Source: Candidatus Zhuqueibacterota bacterium (GTDB taxonomy: Bacteria; BS750m-G25). Taken from it: a DNA stretch of 64,000 nucleotides. Below the pieces are notes generated by a model. The model was given only the letters and a program-made list of their open reading frames with translations. It had not been told where the DNA came from and did not search any database. How positions within the stretch are numbered: the first letter of the stretch is position 1; each line of letters begins with the position of its first letter. The stretch spans positions 1 to 64,000 of the forward strand of contig JADHWK010000006.1 of assembly GCA_016783505.1 (NCBI GenBank). The letters are read 5' to 3'. Below are positions 32,677 to 43,571 of this stretch, piece after piece. The position numbers were made by a program, and so were the translations under genes.

Positions 32677-33246
32677 TTGAAATATGATCCAAACAAACAC
32701 CACCGCCGTTCAATTCGATTAAAAGAATATGATTACTCGCAGGCCGGGGTATATTTTATCACAATATGCACAAAAAACCGGGAATGTTTGTTTGGCAGGG
32801 TGGTGAATGGATTGATGGAATTATCGCCGTTCGGTGTAATTGCACACCAATTTTGGTTTGAAATACCAAAACATTTTGACAATGTCGAATTGGATGAATT
32901 TAACGCCATGCCTAATCATATACACGGGATAATTGAAATTACATCCGACAATCAAATCGCATACAACGTAGGGGCAATTCGTGAATTGCCCCTACCAAAA
33001 TTGCCCATACATGTTCAACGGCGAAAAATGTTGATTCCGAGAATCGTCGGATATTACAAAATGAATACCGCAAAACGCATAAATCAAATGCGCAACACCC
33101 CAGGTATACCCGTATGGCAGCGCAATTATTATGAACACATTATCCGCAATGAAGATGATTTAAACAAGATCAGGAGATATATAATAAACAATCCCATTAA
33201 ATGGGAATCGGACAGGGAGAATCCTAAGAAAATAAAACAGGGATAA
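32677..33246 (+). mobile_element. RAYT transposase (REP-associated tyrosine transposase, Y1_Tnp)
   Basis: 189 residues. The opening RRSIRLKEYDYSQAGVYFITICTKNRECLFG, the HUH motif in FNAMPNHIHGIIEI and the catalytic-Tyr region GYYKMNTAKRIN, followed by VWQRNYYEHIIRNEDDLNKI, match RAYT-type Y1 transposases, which act on REP palindromes. A perfect palindrome (32969-32996) lies inside the gene and is translated as VGAIRELPLPKLP. This is unusual and may mean the transposase copied its own target into itself. The start is an alternative TTG/GTG-type codon (TTG at 32677). Confidence 0.85.
32969..32996. repeat. REP-like palindrome inside the RAYT gene
   Basis: GTAGGGGCAATTC (13 bp), GT, GAATTGCCCCTAC (13 bp): a perfect stem-loop. 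It lies in the RAYT frame without breaking it. A diverged second copy is at about 37071-37095. Confidence 0.85.
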
Positions 33247-38416: not shown

Positions 38417-38445
38417 TTGACAAAGCCGCGAATTTTTCGTAAATT
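38417..38445 (+). promoter_or_regulatory. Sigma-70 promoter of the tRNA-Asp/GIY-YIG unit
   Basis: TTGACA (38417-38422), 17-bp spacer, TAAATT (38440-38445), 33 bp before the first tRNA-Asp copy. It is the only good promoter visible between tRNA-Val and the intact tRNA-Asp at 38793. Confidence 0.65.
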
Positions 38446-38477
38446 TAAATAGGTTATTTACTGAAAGTTTTTTTTAG

Positions 38478-38546
38478 GGGGTCGTAGTTCAGTTGGCTAG
38501 AACGCCGGTCTGTCATCCCGATGGTTCGGGACGAGTTCGAGTCTCG
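38478..38546 (+). pseudogene. Broken tRNA-Asp, copy 1 (palindrome in anticodon/variable region, no 3' acceptor strand)
   Basis: Identical to intact tRNA-Asp through the D-arm and to the anticodon GTC, then cccgatggttcggga replaces the 3' anticodon stem and variable loop. The T-arm is present, but the 3' acceptor strand (CGGCCCC) is missing and the sequence turns into tggatgcctgATG of the GIY-YIG gene. It cannot fold as a functional tRNA. Confidence 0.8.
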
Positions 38547-38557
38547 GTGGATGCCTG

Positions 38558-38815
38558 ATGTTTTATGTGTATTTATTGCAGAGTGAAAAAGATGGTTCTT
38601 TCTACATTGGATATACCTCAAATTTAGAACTCAGAATAAAGGAACACAATAATGGGAAAGGACGTTACACCAACAAGAAAACACCATGGTCATTGGTTTA
38701 TGTGGAAAGATTTGCGATAAAAAGCGATGCTTTAAGACGGGAGAGATTTTTAAAAAGGCAGAAAAATAGGGCTTTTTATGAAAAGTTGATACGGGGTCGT
38801 AGTTCAGTTGGCTAG
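38558..38815 (+). CDS. GIY-YIG nuclease domain protein between two tRNA-Asp copies
   Basis: 85 residues: FYVYLLQS...SFYIGYTSNLELRIKEHNNGK is the GIY-YIG core with the conserved Arg; the catalytic Glu is in ALRRERFLKRQK. It starts 12 bp after the truncated tRNA-Asp (38478-38546), and its stop TAG (38813-38815) lies inside the D-loop of the intact tRNA-Asp at 38793. The last residues (GRSSVG) are translated tRNA sequence. Single-domain GIY-YIG proteins of this size are related to homing nucleases and to UvrC. The layout fits a nuclease that cuts and duplicates tRNA-Asp; that is inference. Confidence 0.85.
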   Translation: MFYVYLLQSEKDGSFYIGYTSNLELRIKEHNNGKGRYTNKKTPWSLVYVERFAIKSDALRRERFLKRQKNRAFYEKLIRGRSSVG

Positions 38816-38866
38816 AACGCCGGCCTGTCACGCCGGAGGTCGCGAGTTCGAGTCTCGTCGGCCCCG
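38793..38866 (+). tRNA. tRNA-Asp (GTC), intact copy
   Basis: 74 nt. Acceptor GGGGTCG/CGGCCCC, D-arm GTTC/GAAC, anticodon arm CCGGC-CTGTCAC-GCCGG with anticodon GTC, T-arm GCGAG-TTCGAGT-CTCGT (4-5 pairs) and discriminator G. Three other tRNA-Asp-like sequences nearby are broken. It has no promoter of its own in the 20 bp before it, which is coding sequence of the GIY-YIG gene. Confidence 0.95.
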
Positions 38867-38870
38867 CCCG

Positions 38871-38924
38871 AAATAGCCTCCTCAAGTTCTTAAGAAAAAT
38901 AACTTGACCGGAGGCTATTTTTTG
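38871..38924 (+). terminator. Terminator after intact tRNA-Asp
   Basis: AAATAGCCTCC and GGAGGCTATTT pair, with an inner stem TCAAGTT/AACTTGA, followed by a T-run (38918-38923). Confidence 0.75.
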
Positions 38925-39012: not shown

Positions 39013-39090
39013 GGGGTCGTAGTTCAGTTGGCTAGAACGCCGGTCTGTCATCCCGATGGTTCGGGACGAGTTCGGGTCTCGTCGGCCCTC
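39013..39090 (+). pseudogene. Broken tRNA-Asp, copy 3 (left edge of island)
   Basis: Same palindrome-bearing form as copy 1 (ctgtcatcccgatggttcgggacgag), but with a full-length 3' strand CGGCCCT; the anticodon stem cannot form. Upstream, ttatttgccgaaggttttttta resembles the sequence before copy 1. It is one of a pair of direct repeats with 43494-43571. Confidence 0.8.
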
Positions 39091-39099
39091 CGAATGCCA

Positions 39100-39480
39100 A
39101 AAGGCTTTCCCTCTTCATCCAACCTATCGAAAAAGTCTACCAAGCTACACACACCACCATCCCCATAGCTACGCCCCGCTTAAACGGATCAACGTAAAAC
39201 TTCCACGGTCGCATTGAAGATGAACTCTGTACCACCGAAACCTTTACCTATGAAAAAGAACTTCTGGATAAAATAATAAGCTATATGCTGTTCTATCACT
39301 TCAAACGCCCACACCAAGGCCTCAGCAATAACAACGGGCGTCCCTCTACATTATACCTTTACATCAAAACTAAACTACCTAATGCAACACCATCCTTGAC
39401 ATTCCTACCGCCAATCATCTTGGATCGGATCCCAATCAGTCGGGCGCATGACCGATCCACCCAAAACAACTGCTCCAACA
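39100..39480 (+). pseudogene. Remnant of an integrase-core (DDE) transposase
   Basis: A frame read with a TAA inside it gives IATPRLNGS, FHGRIEDELC and the C-terminal YHFKRPHQGLSNNNGRPSTLYLY. The order NG, then H-GRIE-EL, then R-PHQGL is that of IS3/IS481-type integrase-core transposases. Only the C-terminal ~90 residues remain. A palindrome (atcagtcgggcgcatgaccgat) follows at about 39436-39458. It marks a mobile-element insertion at the left edge of the island. Confidence 0.65.
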
Positions 39481-39543
39481 AACACGCCCCACTAATAGTG
39501 GGGAGGTCTTATCCATTGAGGTCAATATTACTTAATTTTTTAC

Positions 39544-39572
39544 TTGACTTTCAACAAATTAATTATTATATT
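39544..39572 (+). promoter_or_regulatory. Sigma-70 promoter of the island operon
   Basis: TTGACT (39544-39549), 17-bp spacer, TATATT (39567-39572); both hexamers are near-consensus. Confidence 0.7.
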
Positions 39573-39577
39573 TAGGA

Positions 39578-39593
39578 GTATGTACGTACATAC
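39578..39593. promoter_or_regulatory. Perfect palindrome GTATGTACGTACATAC at the transcription start
   Basis: A 16-bp perfect palindrome begins six bases after the -10 of the island promoter, a classic repressor position. A related word on the other strand (gtaagtatgtatatg) lies near the right end of the island at about 43352. No regulator gene is seen within the island. Confidence 0.55.
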
Positions 39594-39616
39594 ATACTTC
39601 TAAAATTGTAACCTCT

Positions 39617-40537
39617 ATGATCAAGATAACTAAAACAATCAAGATTTCAATACGCCAGGAAGAGTGGATCAAATCTAAAAAGATTAACTTTTCAGAGTGG
39701 GTAAGACAGAAATTAGATGCAGAAATTGATCAACAACTCAAATTGGGAAATAAAGACAGATTCAAGGCTGTTATATTAGCTGCTGGCAAAGATACTAACC
39801 TTTTTCCGCTCACTGAAGATATACCCAAAGCTCTACTTGATGTCAAGGGAAAAACTATCCTCCAGCGACAGATTGAAATGCTTAGGATGATCGGGATAAA
39901 TGATATTGCAGTCGTGCGAGGTTACAAAAAGGATCAGATAAACTTCCCTAATCTGGAGTACTTTGATAATGATGATTATGAAAATACAGGAATTTTAGTT
40001 TCTTTATTTCTTGCCAGGAAATTTATGGATGGAGATATGGTAGTTTTGTACGGTGACATTCTTTTTGAAATAGGCATACTAAAAAGACTAATAGAAACAC
40101 GATACAACACTACTCTAGTTGTTGATAGAGGTTGGAAAAGGCGCTATCAGGTTAGTCATGAAGAGCATCCTTCTGCTCCTGAGTTGACTACCCTATCTGA
40201 CAAAGAGCGGGAGATTGAAATTAGTTCAGTTGGCGTCGGTTTACCTGAAACTAATTCAACATCTGAATTTATCGGGTTAGCTAAATTATCAACCAGTGCC
40301 TGTTCAGTTCTCAAGGATCTTTATGAAAAAGTTTATTGTGTAAATAAGGATAAGAAATTTTACCAGACTGAACATATTAGAAATGCATCCTTCGTCGACT
40401 TTATTCAAGAATTGATAAATCGGGGAGAAAAAGTGTCTGCTTTAGAAATTTGGCGGAAATGGATAGATGTAGACACGTTTGAAGACTACAGAAATGCATG
40501 GAAACTTTTAGACGAAATAACTGGGAGCGAAAAATGA
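39617..40537 (+). CDS. LicC/PntC-like sugar- or phospho-alcohol nucleotidyltransferase
   Basis: 306 residues. About 33 N-terminal residues look like a short helical/RHH-like leader (ISIRQEEWIKSKKINFSEWVRQKLD). Then the nucleotidyltransferase signature FKAVILAAGKDTNLFPLTED, PKALLDVKGKTIL; DGDMVVLYGDILFE supplies the metal-binding Asp. This is the fold of CTP:phosphocholine cytidylyltransferase (LicC) and phosphonate nucleotidyltransferases (PntC). The substrate cannot be read. ATG of the next gene overlaps its stop (ATGA). Sequence is much more AT-rich than the flanks. First gene after the promoter and palindrome. Confidence 0.78.
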   Translation: MIKITKTIKISIRQEEWIKSKKINFSEWVRQKLDAEIDQQLKLGNKDRFKAVILAAGKDTNLFPLTEDIPKALLDVKGKTILQRQIEMLRMIGINDIAVVRGYKKDQINFPNLEYFDNDDYENTGILVSLFLARKFMDGDMVVLYGDILFEIGILKRLIETRYNTTLVVDRGWKRRYQVSHEEHPSAPELTTLSDKEREIEISSVGVGLPETNSTSEFIGLAKLSTSACSVLKDLYEKVYCVNKDKKFYQTEHIRNASFVDFIQELINRGEKVSALEIWRKWIDVDTFEDYRNAWKLLDEITGSEK

Positions 40538-40962
40538 GAATTGTTTATTCATATTATGTGTTAGATATTGTTCATAGAGGGCATTTGTTAATGATGAAAA
40601 ACGCCAAAGCAATAGCCGGAGTGGATGGTAAGTTAATAGTGGGAATTCTTACCGATGAGGCAGTTTTGGAAAAAAAGCCAAATAAACCGACACTATCATT
40701 TGAGGAAAGAATTGAACTGGCGAGTGCAATAAAATATGTGGATGTTGCAGTCGCACAAGAAACTTATTCACCATTGCCCAATGTTATGAGAATTAAACCT
40801 GATATATTGATGGAAAGTGCAAGTCATGATGAAGAAGAAATTGAAAAGGCAAGGGAATATATGGCGAGTATTAAAGGCAAAGTTATTGTCATTCCATACT
40901 TTCCCTCACAATCATCAACCGAAATAAAAAACATCATAGTTGAAAATAGTAAAAGAGAATAG
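40534..40962 (+). CDS. TagD-like cytidylyltransferase
   Basis: 142 residues. YYVLDIVHRGHLLMMKNAK contains the HxGH motif, KLIVGILTDEAVLEKKPNKP is the typical strand-loop, and SQSSTEIKNII corresponds to the ISTTxIK signature of the glycerol-3-phosphate/ethanolamine-phosphate cytidylyltransferase superfamily. Similar domains precede phosphoenolpyruvate mutase in phosphonate pathways. The ATG at 40534 is chosen because it overlaps the previous stop by ATGA and follows GGGAGCG. Together with the preceding protein it suggests two CTP-dependent activation steps. Confidence 0.8.
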   Translation: MRIVYSYYVLDIVHRGHLLMMKNAKAIAGVDGKLIVGILTDEAVLEKKPNKPTLSFEERIELASAIKYVDVAVAQETYSPLPNVMRIKPDILMESASHDEEEIEKAREYMASIKGKVIVIPYFPSQSSTEIKNIIVENSKRE

Positions 40963-40995
40963 TACGGGATTACACAATATTAACAGGAGTGGAAA

Positions 40996-42297
40996 ATGGC
41001 AAATGAATTAACTGAGTCTGTAAACCTGCAGATTAGGCACTGGCAAAAGAAAATGTTCTGGCTGATGTGGATAACCTACGCCTCATTTTATCTGGGGCGC
41101 GTAAATATCTCAGTAGCTTTGCCTGGAATAATGGACGAGTTTGGCTTAACAAAAACTAATATAGGATGGGTTTTGAGTAGTCTGTTTGCACTGTATGCAA
41201 TTGGGCAATTTATCAATGGTCAGCTGGGCGATAGACTAAATTCTAGGAGAATCATTACAATTGGATTGTTATCATCGGCGGTTTTAAATGTTATTTTTGG
41301 GTTCATCGGTGGCATATTAGGTCTTATGGTTGTTATATGGGGATTGAATGGATATTTCCAATCAATGGGTTGGGGACCTACTGTAAAAGCGATGGCAAAT
41401 TGGTTTCCCCAAAATATAAGAGGTAAAATTTCCGGACGTCTGGGTACCTGCTACATTATTGGAGGAGCGCTTTCATGGCTGCTGGCTGGCACGATTATTA
41501 GATATTTTAATTGGCGTTTTACCTTCTGGTTACCTTCCTTAGTGATGATACTTATTGCTGTTCATTGGTTTATTCGTGCAAGAAACGCGCCTGAAGAAAT
41601 AGGGTTACCAAGTTTAGAAGAGCAAGAAAAAGGTATTGAAAACACACAGGTTCGCAAAGATGAGCATATTGGTTTTCGTAAAACATTAAAGATCACTCTT
41701 TTAAATCCCTATGTTTGGTTTGCGGCCTTTGGATTGTTTGGGTTAAACATTGTGCGTTACGGTTTTATGAGCTGGGCACCGACTTATATGTTTGAAGAGC
41801 AAGGTGCAACAATTTCATTAGCAGCTTATAAGGCAATTGCTTTTCCTATAGCTGGGGGTCTTGGTGCAATATTTGCCGGCTGGGCATCAGATAAGATGTT
41901 TAATAACCGAAGGGCGCCGATTGCTTTTATCATGCTGATTTTATTAGCTGTATTCTGCTACCTATACAGAATAGTTCCTGGAGAAAACTGGATTGTGAGT
42001 TTAATTATATTATTATTGATTGGCTTTTTTACTTTTGGTCCTCATATACTGGTGGTAGCTGCATTACCAGCGGACTTAGGTTCACGTAAAGCTGCTTCAT
42101 CTGTAACCGGTTTCATAGATGCAATGGGATATGTGGGAGCAAGCTTAACTGGTGTTGGAACTGGTTATCTTATAGACAAATTTAATTGGGATGCTGCTTT
42201 TTACTTCTGGATTTTTGGTGCACTCATGGCTGCAGCTATGATGATTTTTATTTGGAAATTTGAACTAAAAAGAGGAGAATATGAAAATGAGTATTAG
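40996..42297 (+). CDS. MFS transporter of the organophosphate:phosphate antiporter (OPA) type
   Basis: 433 residues, about 12 TM helices. FWLMWITYASFYLGRVNISVALPGIMDEFGLTKTNIGWVLSSLFALYAIGQFINGQLGDRLNSRRII is close to GlpT/UhpT-type OPA proteins (Y-R-x-N after TM1). GYFQSMGWGPTVKAMANWFP is a further OPA signature. Such transporters exchange inorganic phosphate for glycerol-3-phosphate, hexose phosphates or related phospho-compounds. It lies between cytidylyltransferases and a porin, so the substrate is probably a phosphate or phosphonate ester used in CTP activation (inference). RBS AACAGGAGTGG precedes the ATG. Confidence 0.85.
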   Translation: MANELTESVNLQIRHWQKKMFWLMWITYASFYLGRVNISVALPGIMDEFGLTKTNIGWVLSSLFALYAIGQFINGQLGDRLNSRRIITIGLLSSAVLNVIFGFIGGILGLMVVIWGLNGYFQSMGWGPTVKAMANWFPQNIRGKISGRLGTCYIIGGALSWLLAGTIIRYFNWRFTFWLPSLVMILIAVHWFIRARNAPEEIGLPSLEEQEKGIENTQVRKDEHIGFRKTLKITLLNPYVWFAAFGLFGLNIVRYGFMSWAPTYMFEEQGATISLAAYKAIAFPIAGGLGAIFAGWASDKMFNNRRAPIAFIMLILLAVFCYLYRIVPGENWIVSLIILLLIGFFTFGPHILVVAALPADLGSRKAASSVTGFIDAMGYVGASLTGVGTGYLIDKFNWDAAFYFWIFGALMAAAMMIFIWKFELKRGEYENEY

Positions 42298-43297
42298 AGT
42301 TCATGTTAAAATTATGGTTTCAATTTTTGTTAGTGTCCTTTTATTGGCAAGGGGAATTTTACATGCACAGCAATCTTCCGGTATGAAGATTTCAGGTTTA
42401 GCCTACAACGCCTACTACTACGATTTTTCTAAAGGTTCACAGGATAAAAATGGGTTCGATTTAACCCGATTGTATCTTACCTTCAAGAAAGGTCTATCTG
42501 AAAATATTGGCATTCGAGTCACTACTGACATAGGCCGTGTTTCCAATGATCAGGAGAAAGGATATTACCGGCTTTATCTTAAATATGGATATGTCGAATT
42601 GAAGAAACCATCCTGGAAGGTTAAACTCCTGGTAGGCCTGCACTATGTTCCATTGTTGGCATTTCAGGAAAACATTTGGGGTTATCGTTCTATAAGCAAA
42701 ATGCTTACCGATCTTGAACATAAACAGACCTCATCAGACCTGGGACTGAAGCTTCATGGTCAATTTCACAAAGAGTACGGAGAATATGCTTTCTCCTTTG
42801 TGAATGGTGAGGGATACAACCAACCAGAAATGGGCAAACACAAAGGGTTCTATGGACGAATATCCCTTAGACCTTTCCCCATTAGTATACATGGGCTTCG
42901 GTTGACGGGGTTCGCTTCCCACATTCAACATGATCAGGACTCCTCAACCACACTCACTACGGGATTTGCCACCCTTGAATCCAACCGATTAACTCTTGGT
43001 GCTGAGTTCTCAGCGGGCAATGATAAAATAGGCAGCCAGAAGACCAAATTTTTAGGCTATTCTTTCTTCAGTGTTTTCAAACTTACTTCTAAATGGACTA
43101 TCATTGGCAGAATGGACTGGTTTGACCCTGACACAAGGACAAAAAAGAATTCCCATCTGAGGAAAATCATAGGGATCGGATATTGGATAAGTAAAGATGT
43201 AGAATTGGTTTTTGACTACCAAGGGGTTCAATATGACGAAGGAATTTCGTATATAAATTCGGACATCCTTTATACTCATCTACATTTTAATTTTTAA
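42281..43297 (+). CDS. Porin-like outer-membrane beta-barrel
   Basis: 338 residues. Signal peptide (VSIFVSVLLLARGILHAQ). The mature part is a series of amphipathic strands (YYYDFSKGSQDKNGFDLTRLYLTFKK, GYYRLYLKYGYVELKK, FFSVFKLTSKWTIIGRMDWF) and ends in an aromatic (THLHFNF), as outer-membrane barrels do. It may be a phosphate-selective-porin-like channel; the match is only in style. The start overlaps the transporter stop by 17 bp, implying co-translation. Confidence 0.72.
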   Translation: MKMSIRVHVKIMVSIFVSVLLLARGILHAQQSSGMKISGLAYNAYYYDFSKGSQDKNGFDLTRLYLTFKKGLSENIGIRVTTDIGRVSNDQEKGYYRLYLKYGYVELKKPSWKVKLLVGLHYVPLLAFQENIWGYRSISKMLTDLEHKQTSSDLGLKLHGQFHKEYGEYAFSFVNGEGYNQPEMGKHKGFYGRISLRPFPISIHGLRLTGFASHIQHDQDSSTTLTTGFATLESNRLTLGAEFSAGNDKIGSQKTKFLGYSFFSVFKLTSKWTIIGRMDWFDPDTRTKKNSHLRKIIGIGYWISKDVELVFDYQGVQYDEGISYINSDILYTHLHFNF

Positions 43298-43463
43298 AGC
43301 CAGTGGGTATATTGAAGGCGAGCGAATCAGGACAAGTAATTTTATTGAATATGTAAGTATGTATATGTTTGCCGATACACGCTACTTATATTGATAATTA
43401 ACATGAAGTTAGTAGCAACTAAAATTCTTGCACTGAAAATGTATATTTTATAATAACGTGTTG

Positions 43464-43571
43464 GGGAAAAATAGGGTAATAAAAAGTTGATACGGGTTCG
43501 TAGTTCAGTTGGTTAGGACACCGGCCTGTCATCCTGATGGTTCGGGACGGGATCGAGTCTCGTCGGCCCCG
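43464..43571 (+). pseudogene. GIY-YIG 3' remnant plus broken tRNA-Asp, copy 4 (right edge of island)
   Basis: 43464-43493 (gaaaaatagg...aaaaagttgatacggg) matches the 3' end of the GIY-YIG gene just before the intact tRNA-Asp. It is joined to a tRNA-Asp-like sequence (43494-43571) that has the palindrome (catcctgatggttcgggac), one acceptor mismatch (GGGTTCG) and the 3' strand CGGCCCC. So the whole GIY-YIG-tRNA junction was copied to the far side of the island. Confidence 0.75.

Follow-up and report, generated by a model that had tools for sequence, protein, structure and literature searches.

The small GIY-YIG nuclease ORF lodged at a tRNA-Asp gene of a Candidatus Zhuqueibacterota bacterium is, with a probability that we put at roughly 0.7, a mobile, free-standing nuclease gene for which tRNA genes serve as landing sites and which is copied by homing-like repair. 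The ORF lies in a window of 64,000 nucleotides (contig JADHWK010000006.1), by which we mean the whole stretch of DNA analysed here. Genome comparisons, made at the sequence level, show insertion polymorphism, partial tRNA duplication, tandem amplification and a displaced promoter in some loci of this ORF family. The sequence-only reading of the window had proposed that the arrival of a nuclease gene at a tRNA led to a partial duplication of this tRNA, the intact copy then being tied to an upstream promoter; all three steps are now supported comparatively.

At the window locus, all elements lie on the forward strand. A sigma-70-like promoter, TTGACA-17-TAAATT (38417–38445, 10 of 12 matches), stands 5' of a defunct 5' copy of tRNA-Asp (38478–38546). 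It is followed by the nuclease ORF of 85 aa and UPF0213 type (38558–38815), an intact tRNA-Asp(GUC) found by ARAGORN and, with 69 bits, by Rfam (38793–38866), and an intrinsic terminator hairpin with a T tail (38871–38924), whose strength is reflected in a folding z-score of −5.5. This order and all coordinates, as first described, hold on re-examination. The ORF indeed starts 12 nt past the broken copy, and its last seven codons and TAG stop lie inside the intact tRNA, the stop coinciding with tRNA positions 21–23 in the D-loop. Two points hold only in part: the promoter-like site is present, but chance alone would give 1.0 site of this kind in the kb scanned, and the downstream tRNA-Asp is the only intact copy in so far as the assembly contains no other, but this assembly is just 60% complete. 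The broken copy is nearly identical to the intact tRNA-Asp over positions 1–38 and diverges ahead of the 3' acceptor strand, which, as had been noticed, is missing; neither ARAGORN nor Rfam calls a tRNA in it. What had been overlooked is that the 12 nt following anticodon GTCA (CGCCGGAGGTCG, tRNA positions 39–50) are swapped for a 16-nt foreign hairpin, TCCCGATGGTTCGGGA (38516–38531), after which the copy resumes at position 51 and continues to about position 65.

Also overlooked were two further defunct tRNA-Asp copies 3' of the unit, again on the forward strand. The second copy (39013–39090) is 96% identical to the first, carries the same hairpin at 39051–39066 and has a leader resembling that of the first. 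The third (approximately 43494–43568), with hairpin TCCTGATGGTTCGGGA at 43532–43547, is directly preceded by what is left of a second GIY-YIG ORF, a degraded 3' tail (43466–43493, GAAAAATAGGG...AAAAGTTGATACGGG, recognized by direct comparison); a second unit was therefore once present at the locus. The ORF of this downstream unit has shrunk to its tail, and the unit now holds the 4.4-kb low-GC insert between the outer defunct copies (39100–43465, forward strand). The insert has mostly 34–43% GC, versus about 50–60% in the flanking protein-coding DNA, and encodes an NTP transferase, a cytidylyltransferase-like protein, an MFS transporter and a possible porin. A possible remnant of an IS-type integrase was recognized in it by eye alone, and the corresponding region (39100–39400) gave no Pfam match. 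The remaining three GIY-YIG ORFs of this genome are located at tRNA-Pro, tRNA-Ala and tRNA-Asn, where defunct copies of the respective tRNA are found as well, and all four ORFs have a partial tRNA copy across from the intact tRNA.

Scanning 84,980 species genomes yielded 80 homologous loci from many phyla; the query was a three-row alignment, a broad alignment being too little conserved for the scan, and the 80 relatives are therefore skewed towards the window's protein. With loci of shared ancestry counted separately as non-independent rows, 49 of the 80 ORFs have an intact tRNA no more than 100 bp away, as do 1.7% of positions drawn at random from these loci (binomial P ~1e-65). All 49 share the strand of the tRNA, and the family adjoins at least 15 tRNA isotypes. 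The association is thus found in relatives as well, and so is the duplication of tRNA ends: a partial copy of the neighbouring tRNA lies on the other side of the ORF, at a significant level, in 28 of 51 testable loci. About one third of the relatives have no recognisable tRNA nearby, which counts against homing. At three loci (L022, L038 and L039), GIY-YIG ORFs without a tRNA are flanked instead by direct copies of dispersed palindromic repeats. The stop codon of the ORF falls inside the tRNA at 13 loci, as TAG in 11 of them and often by way of the conserved U8-A9-G10.

The units occur in two layouts, namely 5' fragment, ORF and intact tRNA as in the window (type B), or intact tRNA, ORF and 3' fragment (type A). 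The expectation that the intact tRNA lies downstream of the ORF hence applies to type B, but not to type A, which is at least as common and has the intact tRNA upstream. In eight genomes, several of them from cultured type strains, one to ten ORF copies each are found at different tRNAs. The family is present in 91 of 148 Bacteroidota genomes (61%), with up to 21 copies, and in this sample, which is separate from the 80 loci, 23 of 30 loci lie within 250 bp of a same-strand tRNA. Bacteroidota genomes also contain tandem units of 320–380 bp, among them an array of three near-identical units with an intact tRNA-Ser at its end (G254). These units carry no integrase or recombinase, the GIY-YIG ORF being their sole content, and we thus rejected an integrase-driven island. 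Islands inserted by tyrosine integrases between attL and attR resemble the units in using a tRNA, leaving a partial tRNA repeat and restoring a functional tRNA, yet they differ in having an integrase and a fixed att core, whereas the part duplicated here may be 5' or 3'.

The same data make it unlikely that the ORF is a passive passenger, that is, an unrelated small ORF carried and tolerated in the spacer of tRNA loci that are prone to recombination and duplicate unaided. Hairpin-bearing defunct copies do occur without a nearby ORF, at two Algoriphagus loci (L169 and L174) and in arrays of one Chitinophagaceae genome (G066), as such a passenger would allow, though these orphans can equally be read as scars of lost units. 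Against it, the ORFs found at different tRNAs and in many phyla belong to a single protein family and share the strand of the tRNA, and the protein is under purifying selection with its catalytic residues retained.

Mobility of the unit is best seen where occupied and empty versions of one site can be compared. We examined a tRNA-Asp locus downstream of a gene that we take to be of DUF58 type in 31 genomes (Flavobacteriaceae and one related MAG). Two are occupied in the type-B layout, one has a GIY-YIG ORF after the tRNA, and 28 lack the ORF, 27 of these having a single tRNA-Asp and one having two. Hence, in this sample, 27 of the 28 genomes lacking the ORF do have a single uninterrupted tRNA-Asp at the orthologous site, in line with the sequence-only reading. 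For the lineage of the window itself we found no empty site, which counts against homing. At the accA–tRNA-Asp locus of Algoriphagus, one genome contains two tandem 380-bp units, flanked by direct repeats of tRNA plus terminator, and others with 95–98% identical accA contain none; these unoccupied sites hold tRNA-Asp pairs. Judged from these comparisons, presence and absence at a fixed site among relatives is found in Algoriphagus and Flavobacteriaceae, lineages other than that of the window. A tRNA-Asp cluster stands upstream of accA, in either orientation, in Algoriphagus relatives (L167–L196).

The empty sites contradict the idea that the ORF is a housekeeping UPF0213 gene, like yazA in Firmicutes, that came to stand beside a tRNA by chance. 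Although it belongs to the same protein family, and one yazA-type gene was seen in a conventional operon, the polymorphism, multicopy genomes, tandem arrays, stop-bearing copies and many tRNA sites leave this idea barely credible.

The occupied and unoccupied sites also bear on the promoter. TAnnTTTG, the promoter consensus of Bacteroidetes, occurs within 60 nt of the tRNA-Asp in 24 of the 28 unoccupied loci. At three occupied type-B loci of Bacteroidota, this element precedes the defunct copy, and no TAnnTTTG was found in the ORF or ahead of the intact tRNA. As such, the dependence of the intact tRNA on an upstream promoter, as originally suggested, agrees with the lack of a TAnnTTTG element of its own at these three loci. 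Where the promoter is recognisable, its position as read from the DNA is before the defunct copy. The unit may be retained because, in type B, the ORF comes to separate the working tRNA from its native promoter.

The window ORF matches the Pfam family GIY-YIG (PF01541, E=8e-18), and with sequence profiles its closest structural relatives are those of UPF0213 (E=3e-23), followed by SLX1. The AlphaFold model (pLDDT 89) gives the same order, with UPF0213 structure 1zg2 as best match, then SLX1, and a weaker match to I-TevI. Among 68 homologues, Y5, Y16, G18, H30 and E62 are invariant and R26 is kept in at least 90%; the window protein retains these residues, whose catalytic role we assume from I-TevI and UvrC. 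Pairs with estimable dS give dN/dS values of 0.04–0.23, consistent with a protein under purifying selection. Some ORF copies also carry stop codons, as a selfish gene with repeated gain and loss would be expected to show. According to Pfam and the model, the 85 aa comprise the catalytic domain only, with no separate DNA-binding region. UPF0213/YazA/YhbQ proteins (PDB 1zg2, 1ywl) share size, fold and catalytic motif with the window protein, but the yazA-type gene inspected sits in a conventional operon, whereas the window family is multicopy, polymorphic and located at tRNAs. With SLX1, detectable similarity is in the sequence and fold of the GIY-YIG domain; unlike the window protein, SLX1 has a RING domain and the partner SLX4, and is not mobile.

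A tree of 78 proteins is poorly resolved and places the window protein, with weak support, among Bacteroidota proteins found mostly at tRNA-Asp. The tRNA isotype is clustered on this tree yet switches often, with 45 changes versus a mean of 57 after shuffling (0 of 200 shuffles). The family also has 18 phage matches; the single one inspected has no annotated tRNA adjoining it.

In the defunct copies, an unrelated hairpin takes the place of a tRNA stretch over its full length, and mostly has the form [CT]CCCGA(n)TCGGG[AG]. Ala, Met and Leu copies have their entire anticodon arm swapped, Pro copies the T arm, and tRNA-Asp copies positions 39–50, in the window and at two other loci, L043 and L066, of which L066 has a different hairpin; swap hairpins of other sequence are also found in G177 and G254. 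The replaced stretches are themselves inverted repeats, with 69 summed terminal pairs versus 7.7 in random stretches (0 of 20,000) and 52 versus 5.4 in a reduced set, values to be read with the fact that tRNA arms are inverted repeats anyway and that the maximal repeat of the defunct copy served to set the boundaries, a choice accounting for about one extra pair in three cases. Some of the swapped stretches (AACCACTAGGTT, ACAGTCTGT and GAGTCTC) are non-arm sequence. The hairpins crowd near the ORFs, with 0.81 per kb within about 200 bp versus 0.063 per kb over whole loci. By pattern searches, all four exact TCCCGAN4TCGGGA sites of A. vanfongensis lie at defunct tRNA-Asp copies of one locus, and all ten sites of one Chitinophagaceae MAG are at defunct copies of tRNA-Asp, Arg, Leu or Ser. 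The same kind of search counted 226 TCCCGA-N4-TCGGGA hairpins in the window's genome, some inside other repeats, versus 0 in a reversed control; five of them are in the window (5591, 14825, 38516, 39051 and 45674). They form a dispersed family with varying loops and, by eye, no common flank.

Several arrangements of these hairpins were seen besides. At L012 (188–261) and L223, the same hairpin seemingly takes the place of the core in a different dispersed repeat (GTCATTGCGA...GAAGCAATC), and at L014 (1416) and L015 (2109) the apparently intact tRNA-Leu(CAG) and tRNA-Ser(GCT) have variable arms that are TCCCGA-type hairpins. Eleven 107-nt tandem tRNA-Pro-like repeats end at a GIY-YIG ORF in L138 (329–1473; a site shared with L060, Poribacteria MAG); they have no readable anticodon, and the copies inspected contain a TTCCGA-type hairpin. 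The Chitinophagaceae genome G066 (L212–L215) has tandem defunct copies of tRNA-Arg (68-nt period), Leu and Ser with hairpins, and no GIY-YIG ORF adjoins these arrays among the detected matches.

The hairpins raise a different explanation, in which the nuclease recognizes hairpins or cruciforms rather than sequence and drives both its own insertion at tRNAs and the hairpin swaps. A minimal, SLX1-like, structure-specific GIY-YIG nuclease would then define a class of mobile element exploiting hairpin DNA, with tRNA insertion, host dependence and, by itself or with a partner, a swap of inverted repeats in the spare tRNA copies for unrelated hairpins, with cuts at the stem base. The ranking of I-TevI below both UPF0213 and SLX1, a nuclease of branched DNA, the inverted-repeat nature of the swapped segments and the crowding of hairpins near the ORFs all speak for it. 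However, the 226 hairpins of the window's genome face only four nuclease genes, hairpins occur in other repeats as well, the clustering of isotypes on the tree suggests some sequence preference, and the window also encodes a Y1 transposase. We therefore regard both the structure-specific activity and the element class built on it as rather improbable. The transposase in question (Y1_Tnp; IS200-like, RAYT-type) is encoded at 32677–33246, about 5 kb upstream of the unit. REP palindromes of RAYTs are hairpins that lie by a Y1 transposase gene and have one flanking tetranucleotide in common. As regards a RAYT as possible source of the hairpins, no TCCCGA hairpin lies beside the transposase gene of the window, and inspection by eye showed no flank common to the hairpins.

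A toxin–antidote pair, with the cognate tRNA as RNA target of the protein and the defunct copy as a decoy RNA restraining it, could explain why much tRNA sequence is kept in the defunct copies and why the isotype association is partly stable. Yet the swapped segment varies by locus between the D, anticodon and T regions, and the defunct copies are decayed or truncated and fold no better than shuffles, so that conserved RNA structure in them was rejected. Moreover, we know of no GIY-YIG RNase, and we consider such a pair very improbable.

A free-standing mobile gene, our preferred reading, has its closest parallel in SegB, which is reportedly a free-standing GIY-YIG homing endonuclease encoded within the cluster of tRNA genes in T-even phages (Brok-Volchanskaya 2008). 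SegB cuts inside tRNA genes and drives tandem tRNA–segB amplification (PMC13096335), by way of microhomology that the 5' end of the tRNA shares with the 3' end of segB (PMC13096335; PMC2988022). Its reported motif, RAWTSGAAC (PMC13096335; PMC2988022), resembles, by our own comparison, the tRNA T arm in reverse complement (GGATTCGAACC). Both nuclease genes stand beside tRNA genes, outside any intron or intein; unlike SegB, the window family is chromosomal, occurs in many bacterial phyla and at 15 or more isotypes, and has a partial tRNA copy at many insertions. SegB and I-TevI further have additional DNA-binding parts, whereas the window protein, as known from sequence and model, is a bare 85-aa domain, which speaks against carrying the SegB model over unchanged. 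Homing endonucleases of group I introns in tRNA genes share the GIY-YIG nuclease and the tRNA target, yet at the window locus the tRNA is duplicated, not split; an intron was rejected, since only tRNAs match Rfam in the window and the intact tRNA is contiguous.

By analogy to SegB homing, the GIY-YIG protein would cut or nick the cognate tRNA gene in a copy of the locus lacking the ORF, and recombination with the tRNA sequences beside the ORF would copy the unit in. As the genome comparisons show, the ORF is inserted in tRNA loci along with a partial tandem tRNA copy, leaving one full tRNA; the spare copy decays afterwards, and units can repeat in tandem. The intact tRNA adjoining the ORF looks uncleaved, which counts against homing, as does the fact that SLX1, the closest solved relative outside UPF0213, recognizes structure and not sequence.

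To our knowledge, free-standing GIY-YIG homing genes beside tRNAs are otherwise known from phages only, and we found no earlier description of the chromosomal arrangement in the literature searched, which covered few subscription journals and no preprints. The arrangement on bacterial chromosomes is related to that of SegB and, by sequence, widespread, with most tRNA types and many bacterial phyla represented, and with cultured strains among the carriers whose relatives keep one clean tRNA at that site. Annotation pipelines are affected too, as defunct copies can be called as tRNAs, e.g. at 39013–39091 of the window. The ORF family would provide a simple source of broken and tandem tRNA copies in bacterial genomes. 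We know of no mechanism for the precise exchange of an inverted repeat for a hairpin; this swap is the trace left by some process acting on DNA and, of all our findings, perhaps the most novel.
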